DNA of 44,503 nucleotides, from IMG/VR virus record IMGVR_UViG_3300044638_003582, positions 1 to 44,503 of that record; one strand, given 5' to 3'. This document shows, piece after piece, positions 37,006 through 38,881 of the stretch; position 1 is the first letter of the stretch, and every line of letters begins with the position of its first letter. Below the pieces are notes generated by a model. The model had not been told where the DNA came from. It searched no databases and was given only the letters and a program-made list of their open reading frames with translations. Source of the stretch: a virus. The position numbers were made by a program, and so were the translations under genes.

Positions 37006-37272
37006 TTAATGAATAATACTTGTTCGTTCTTGTTCACCTTCATCTGGATTCATAAGTAGCATCTTACGATTAGCCGCAGAACCCAAACACGACATAAGCT
37101 CCATTACGCCAATCTTTGGCAGTCGATGTTCCTTACAGAACTGCAAGGCTAATCTATCGCCGTGCTTAATGCCACCATTACCAACAACTGCTTCAATAAG
37201 ATCTACAGTGTTAAGCAATTTGTCCATACTGAATCCAGTAAGAACTGCTACTATATGGTCCTTCTCATTCAT
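37006..37272 (-). CDS. Small protein of unknown function
   Basis: Encodes 88 residues. Helical pattern (AVLTGFSMDKLLNTVDLIEA; GDRLALQFCKEHRLPKIGVM; ELMSCLGSAANRKMLLMNPD) suggests a small helical bundle, perhaps a DNA- or protein-binding adaptor. Its start overlaps the preceding gene's stop by 8 bases. There is no ribosome binding site besides this coupling. I recognise no family; the conserved-looking core is between about residues 30 and 70. Support is the open frame and coupling to its neighbour. Confidence 0.55.
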   Translation of the reverse strand: MNEKDHIVAVLTGFSMDKLLNTVDLIEAVVGNGGIKHGDRLALQFCKEHRLPKIGVMELMSCLGSAANRKMLLMNPDEGEQERTSIIH

Positions 37273-37615
37273 CGAATAGACTTTCTACCGTTGGTAAATT
37301 AAGTCCCGTGCTGCTTGAGTTCTCGCTCAAATCTATTAGCGAACAGATATGAGACAATGCCTGCTGTTCACTCGGACTTGTCACTAGATTCCCGTTTGAC
37401 TCTGCGCCTGCTACGATTAGGTTTCCTTTCTTCGCTACGCTGATCCACCCCCTCATACCCATCAGTGGTGTTATGTACAGCACCCGAACCTCGAAGCCCT
37501 TGTACCTGCATTTCGTAGGCAATTGCTTGGTCAAGTGAATCAACGAAGGCTCCTTGACCTCCGTGTTTTTTGACTGCTTCGATGAACTCTTTTTGCTTTT
37601 CTCGTTTTGCGCCAT
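37265..37615 (-). CDS. Protein overlapping the VRR-NUC gene in another frame
   Basis: Encodes 116 residues from ATG 37615 (AQNEKSKKSSSKQSKNTE), which has AAAAGGA four bases before it. The upstream GTG at 37696 is less likely. The first half is the alternative frame of the nuclease domain and is Lys/Ser-rich; the second half, from about residue 45, looks like a real folded part: YKGFEVRVLYITPLMGMRGW, VAKKGNLIVAGAESNGNLVT and LSHICSLIDL. The 3' end overlaps the next gene by 8 bases, as expected for this operon. It overlaps the nuclease frame by 248 bases. Whether the folded part begins at this ATG or at a nearer alternative (TTG at the KQLPTK stretch) is open. Confidence 0.5.
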   Translation of the reverse strand: MAQNEKSKKSSSKQSKNTEVKEPSLIHLTKQLPTKCRYKGFEVRVLYITPLMGMRGWISVAKKGNLIVAGAESNGNLVTSPSEQQALSHICSLIDLSENSSSTGLNLPTVESLFDE

Positions 37616-37886
37616 TTTTCCTTTTAACCTCAATCCAAAATTGTACATTTTTTCCAAAGACAAAAAGGTCTGGAACCCCACTATGAGATTTACCACCTAC
37701 TTTGCCGAACCAGGTATAATACCATACCCAGTTACCACTTCCTGCTTTGCCACCACCGCTATTAAATCGTATAACTTCATAACCAAGTTTGACAAAATAA
37801 TCGCAGATGCTGGCCTGAACCTGTGACTCAGGTATTATCGGCTTGCCTTCTTTGTCTAGTTTTAAGACTCTGCTGCTACGGATAAT
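37368..37886 (-). CDS. VRR-NUC-type nuclease without a normal start codon
   Basis: The frame is open from after a TAG at 37899-37901 to the TGA at 37368-37370. The product holds the VRR-NUC core: PESQVQASICDYFVKLGYEV, then SGVPDLFVFG, then FWIEVKRKNGAKREKQKEFI, which give the catalytic E, D, E and K. This PD-(D/E)xK family acts on branched or nicked DNA. No ATG, GTG or TTG occurs in frame before the end of the domain. The best candidate start is ATT at 37884-37886, preceded by AAAGGA and a 6-base spacer. The frame overlaps the YqaJ gene by 25 bases. A basic Arg/Lys tail ends the protein. Gene reality is strong; the start is unresolved. Confidence 0.6.
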   Translation of the reverse strand: MIRSSRVLKLDKEGKPIIPESQVQASICDYFVKLGYEVIRFNSGGGKAGSGNWVWYYTWFGKVGGKSHSGVPDLFVFGKNVQFWIEVKRKNGAKREKQKEFIEAVKKHGGQGAFVDSLDQAIAYEMQVQGLRGSGAVHNTTDGYEGVDQRSEERKPNRSRRRVKRESSDKSE

Positions 37887-38881
37887 ACTTCTTCCTTTCT
37901 AATGGATGCAGTTTTGAATGTCCTCTTCCCATTCTTATCTGCCTTCCATGTAATCTTCCCAAATCTTTCTCCGAAGTCAAGTATAGGAGCATCAGCTAGG
38001 CGTTCACGCAAGCGTTGCTCACGGAGTGCTAATGCTCGCTGAAGACTTTCCTGTTCATCCTTAATCATCAGAAGCTCAGCTAGAGTAGCTAAATCTTCTT
38101 CCGTAGCACGGACTATCGTGTCTACTTCTTTAGTGCCATCACGGTATTTCTCTTTCAAGAAATCGGTGTATGCGTCAGAGCCATCAGGAGGAGGAACGAG
38201 ATGCTGAATGTCAAGCTCCATACCACCAGCTTCAAGAATCTTACGTGCTTCAATAAGGTCATTCCAAAAACTCCCCACCTTCTCAACAATTCGTTCTTGA
38301 ATTTCTCGGCTTGCTTCAAATGGAATCACATCAATTTTGCTGTTTGATTCTAGGATAGCAAGCTCGGCATACTTCACTTCACAGACTAGCATGTAGTGCT
38401 GAATCTGAATGATGTAGTGAATAGGTACACCTGACTCCCACTTCTGAGCTTCCCAGTGATTGATTGTCTTAATCTCTAGAACTGCTCGATTCTTACCCTG
38501 CTTAAACAATCTATCAGGATTAGCAAATAGAAATGGGTACTTAGCATTTGTTATGATACGGCTTAACTTCATAGGCTTGCGTATAACATTGCCAGCCTCA
38601 TAGTTAGATGCGATTGAATCTACGCCTATGTTTGGATCATAGAATGACCATAGGCGAGCAATCTTGTCTTCATCTTCGTTCCCAATAATCATTGCTAACG
38701 AAGTGTGTCTTTTCGACGCCAAGCCGAGCTTCTCATAGAATACCTGGGCAGAGCAAGAATAAGGAGAAAGCCCAAGAATAGAGGCACTTTCAGAACCTCC
38801 AACACCCATTTGCTGACGCTGTTCAAGCCAGTCCTCACGGTTGGTAAACGCATGAAACTTCAAACCACCCCACGGTTTCAT
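37862..38881 (-). CDS. YqaJ-type viral recombinase exonuclease
   Basis: Encodes 339 residues. GGGGAG is 7 bases upstream of the ATG at 38881, which lies 1 base after the RecT stop. The conserved start GVGGSESASILGLSPYS (about residues 26-42) is the hallmark of the YqaJ/lambda-exonuclease-like family, with NPDRLF and the active-site LEIKT (about residue 134) following. Members digest double-stranded DNA from ends 5' to 3' and hand over single strands to an annealase. It is next to the RecT/Bet gene, a typical recombination pair. The last 12 codons overlap the open frame of the VRR-NUC ORF. No missing motif is apparent. Confidence 0.88.
   Translation of the reverse strand: MKPWGGLKFHAFTNREDWLEQRQQMGVGGSESASILGLSPYSCSAQVFYEKLGLASKRHTSLAMIIGNEDEDKIARLWSFYDPNIGVDSIASNYEAGNVIRKPMKLSRIITNAKYPFLFANPDRLFKQGKNRAVLEIKTINHWEAQKWESGVPIHYIIQIQHYMLVCEVKYAELAILESNSKIDVIPFEASREIQERIVEKVGSFWNDLIEARKILEAGGMELDIQHLVPPPDGSDAYTDFLKEKYRDGTKEVDTIVRATEEDLATLAELLMIKDEQESLQRALALREQRLRERLADAPILDFGERFGKITWKADKNGKRTFKTASIRKEEVLSVAAES

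Follow-up and report, generated by a model that had tools for sequence, protein, structure and literature searches.

Near-cognate initiation is a rare way of starting a protein, and one that is already known. In E. coli, infC and pcnB have near-cognate starts, and infC forms a feedback loop, since the initiation factor that it encodes, IF3, discriminates against the infC start codon. A different arrangement is seen in the IS3 family, where programmed -1 frameshifts of the A_AAG/A_AAA_AAG type produce fusion proteins, A_AAG being known as a weak -1 slip motif. The VRR-NUC nucleases of phages (PF08774, phrog_93) are annotated as endonucleases or Holliday junction resolvases. The use of AUU and AUA as near-cognate starts behind strong Shine-Dalgarno (SD) sequences is established in bacteria, as in cvfC1 (AUU), ccpN and infC (both AUA) of S. 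aureus, and in reporters the output of the S. aureus near-cognate starts was about 10% of that of AUG, in poor medium (PMC13009471).

The stretch of DNA analysed here (the window, 44,503 nt) corresponds to positions 1-44,503 of the IMG/VR virus record IMGVR_UViG_3300044638_003582, a phage record with terminase, portal and capsid genes. Downstream of a gene for a RecT-like annealing protein, the following genes are found:

37862..38881, minus strand: yqaJ, a YqaJ-like (RecE-like) recombination exonuclease of 339 aa (open reading frame; PF09588, 65.4 bits; phrog_434, 190 bits)
37368..37898, minus strand: VRR-NUC frame, with no ATG, GTG or TTG before or inside the domain (open reading frame; PF08774; dS/dN)
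37265..37615, minus strand: next gene of the operon, 116 aa, from ATG 37615 (open reading frame; 248 nt shared with the VRR-NUC frame)

The 3' end of yqaJ, which stops at TAA 37862-37864, overlaps the VRR-NUC frame and holds the start region of the VRR-NUC gene. On the minus strand, this frame opens after a TAG (37899-37901) with the codons AAA GGA AGA AGT ATT ATC CGT AGC AGC AGA GTC TTA and closes at TGA 37368-37370. As claimed in the original prediction, canonical starts are missing before and within the domain, the first in-frame ATG, GTG or TTG being ATG 37511 (codon index 129 of 176), which lies beyond it, and the VRR-NUC core is complete, with E, GVPD, EVK and Q each encoded upstream of this ATG. 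The frame matches VRR_NUC PF08774 with 28.4 bits (cut-off 23.8) and the phrog_93 endonuclease with 67 bits. For a PD-(D/E)XK-type fold, an AlphaFold2 model based on 4 sequences (mean pLDDT 47) gave no more than a plausible helix-strand order and was too poor to be used. On our reading of the table of conserved coding-strand frames of the window, no other evident gene lacks an early canonical start; the remaining evident genes that are conserved in relatives have one close to where conservation sets in. Within the RecT/YqaJ recombination operon, the product likely serves as a minor nuclease partner.

The locus is also present on five other contigs, namely L001 and L002 (92% and 81% DNA identity to the window), L003 and L004, which are one sequence over the compared region, and L014; within the VRR core, identity is 78% for L003/L004 and 69% for L014. 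The independent junctions available for comparison number only four. Among GenBank phages there were no close homologues and only distant ones (about 33%), genome_contigs gave no further homologues, and viral_contigs, scanned by DNA pattern and for VRR, YqaJ and capsid, returned only the same five contigs and one fragment without yqaJ; six additional viral_contigs stretches were rejected as chance matches. The phages with the start-less arrangement are uncultured and form a small group.

The window, L001 and L002 all have the E / G-x-P-D / E-x-K / Q core; in L003 the P of GVPD is replaced by T. When the window is compared with L002, the 77 core codons preceding the start of the next gene carry 29 synonymous and 3 non-synonymous changes (dS 1.25, dN 0.017), and the two other reading frames over those codons show the opposite pattern. 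Such values argue that the VRR-NUC protein is under selection and must be made, and on these substitution patterns we regard the frame as a real translated nuclease gene under strong purifying selection. The absence of a canonical start could also mark a gene that is dead in the window lineage, however, the low dN relative to dS was obtained between two start-less lineages with the domain intact, and a start-less remnant is therefore very improbable. A sequencing or assembly error that removed a normal start, listed originally as an alternative, is excluded, since the identical junction occurs in L001 and L002, both IMG/VR contigs (3300005805, 3300048686), and there is no ATG near the L014 junction either. 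The L002 frame (L002:5001-5516) stops about 18 codons before that of the window, and the length of the C-terminal tail past the domain is not conserved.

From the start of the 116-aa gene onward, dS in the VRR-NUC frame drops sharply, from 1.25 to 0.2, which suggests translation of both frames in their overlap. The 116-aa product is conserved and has no PHROGs match. Its gene begins with ATG in the window and with GTG at the matching place in L003, which indicates an ordinary start, and a TTG start was rejected. The 116-aa gene and the gene following it (MNEKDHIV...) overlap by 8 nt (37265-37272, minus strand), so that there are three successive overlaps in the operon after yqaJ.

Candidate start signals for VRR-NUC lie in the last part of yqaJ:

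37893..37898, minus strand: AAAGGA, Shine-Dalgarno-like by sequence (AAGGA in L001, L002 and L014, not in L003)
37884..37886, minus strand: ATT, the start proposed originally, 6 nt after AAAGGA (kept in L001 and L002; TTT in L014)
37881..37883, minus strand: ATC, candidate start, 9 nt after AAAGGA (kept in L001, L002 and L014)

AAAGGA and ATT are spaced as had been described, and ATC, the next codon, had gone unmentioned. Among 287 ORFs called in five related phages, the distance from SD to start is most often 6-8 nt, so that ATT at 6 nt and ATC at 9 nt are both usable. When the YqaJ tail is recoded synonymously, 28% of the recoded sequences have by chance an SD-like word 5-10 nt ahead of an in-frame ATT, ATC or ATA, and therefore the evidence lies in the conservation of the SD and ATH, not in their mere presence. 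The sequence AAAGGAAGAAGTATTATCCG is common to the window, L001 and L002, and in all three no ATG, GTG or TTG is open to the translated frame, while AAGGA is conserved at proper spacing. The L014 junction reads AAGGAAGCTGTTTTATCCG, with AAGGA and ATC at unchanged distance, TTT for ATT and no ATG nearby. Because L014 keeps ATC 9 nt from AAGGA but not the ATT, which is replaced there by TTT, ATC 37883 appears at least as good a start candidate as ATT 37886, with AUC slightly ahead; the Met-Arg-Arg of L003 is comparable to the (ATC)-Arg of the window frame.

An in-frame GTG also lies inside yqaJ in L014 (L014:4899), with AAGG 4 nt upstream and 66 nt before the ATC. It is a possible, if doubtful, canonical start in L014 only, stops blocking the equivalent in the others. 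Because of this GTG, the support from L014 for ATC is weakened and is not decisive. On the available sequence comparisons, VRR-NUC is probably made by initiation at a near-cognate ATC or ATT behind AAAGGA, inside the end of yqaJ. The original proposal of a near-cognate start behind AAAGGA hence remains the best explanation, although its choice of ATT does not stand alone.

The DNA of the start region is unusually constant and also contains a potential slip site:

37879..37921, minus strand: 43-nt run identical in the window and L002, the longest identical run in yqaJ (gene-wide identity 80%)
37895..37898, minus strand: A_AAG read in the frame of YqaJ; no other -1 slip site in the overlap is plausible (weak; absent in L014 and L003)

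YqaJ codons 321-334 (37880-37921) show zero synonymous change among the window, L001 and L002. Codons without synonymous change number 13 of 13 at the site against 155 of 274 gene-wide (hypergeometric p 0.0005, for a location chosen after looking), and the permutation p for the 43-nt run as the longest of yqaJ is 0.02, before considering location. The run spans AAAGGA, ATT and ATC and begins 35 nt upstream of ATT, and double coding alone is therefore insufficient as an explanation; a like drop in synonymous change is seen, in the VRR-NUC frame, from the point at which the next, overlapping gene starts. A frameshift signal would likewise suppress synonymous change, and A_AAG sits within the conserved stretch, right where the VRR-NUC frame, which is -1 to YqaJ, opens. 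Nevertheless a programmed -1 frameshift at the end of yqaJ, in which the tRNA on AAG (37897-37895) slips onto AAA and yields a YqaJ-VRR-NUC fusion, is unlikely. The overlap contains no X_XXY_YYZ heptamer, in agreement with the original prediction, and A_AAG is limited to the window clade, so that the slip site is not shared by the more distant relatives. No stable downstream fold was found among structures without pseudoknots (z-scores 0.25, 0.51, -0.35 and -0.83), and a separate ATG in L003 means that the fusion, an alternative raised at the outset, is not a family requirement. Transcriptional slippage was rejected, as the overlap has no long A or T run, and no Rfam element was found at the junction.

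The junction of L003 and L004 is built differently. When aligned it is longer by about 15 nt, its ATG is a plain one that forms an ATGA overlap, and a TGA lies in frame two codons before it. Homologues with an intact ATG from which the window differs by one base had been named originally as a finding that would speak against the prediction; no such case was seen, the ATG of L003/L004 belonging to this different layout. A longer upstream start is blocked by the TGA in L003 and by TAG 37899-37901 in the window, L001 and L002. The L003 ATG has no Shine-Dalgarno match, and AAGGA and ATC are both absent there, as expected if they serve initiation. This homologue, with its ATGA overlap without an SD, and the overlap geometry, which suits coupling, are in line with termination at the yqaJ TAA and re-initiation at an unfavourable codon close to the stop or beyond it (e.g. 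the ATA in PII), which would shorten the protein slightly. We consider this quite improbable, however, as LK(L/I)xK(D/E)GKP before the ATA is conserved in all lineages, which implies that those residues are translated, and there is no conserved SD near the ATA.

With near-cognate initiation at ATC or ATT, VRR-NUC would be a separate chain from its own ribosome-binding site within the last yqaJ codons. AAAGGA would set the ribosome on AUC (somewhat favoured) or AUU, and ribosomes ending yqaJ at the TAA, about 20 nt downstream, may contribute by re-initiation. The codon actually used, fMet as the first residue and a low output of VRR-NUC are what we infer from this arrangement. It is also conceivable, with a chance a little short of even, that the AUC (or AUU) start of the nuclease has been kept over long evolution and that AUG and stop-start coupling serve in the sister lineage; if true, the AUC/AUU and AUG lineages offer a natural contrast between two means of setting how much nuclease an overlapping gene yields. 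Gene callers take ATG, GTG and TTG by default, so VRR-NUC would be missed or trimmed to a 47-residue fragment without the catalytic core. Confirmation of near-cognate initiation would add a conserved phage example to the short list of bacterial ones, and would mean that loss of synonymous change in an upstream gene can reveal such starts.

Compared with known systems, this protein has the E, GVPD, EVK, Q core of phage VRR-NUC nucleases, however, it differs from them in having no canonical start, in its position behind a YqaJ exonuclease gene and in the 3' overlap with a gene of unassigned role. The yqaJ/VRR-NUC junction resembles IS3-family fusions in the -1 frame relation and the A_AAG, but is unlike them in that neither a heptamer nor a downstream structure was found and the site is not conserved in relatives. 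The AAAGGA SD is moderate and not extended, unlike those of the S. aureus near-cognate starts, which counts against a near-cognate start here, and AUC is as likely as AUU. A self-limiting start like that of infC, as first suggested, does not fit, since the product is a nuclease and not an initiation factor and no feedback loop is evident; the accompanying idea of nuclease toxicity is not supported. Like infC, pcnB, cvfC1 and ccpN, VRR-NUC would have a conserved start other than AUG, GUG or UUG behind an SD, with low output expected, and unlike these bacterial genes the phage start lies inside the end of the upstream gene.
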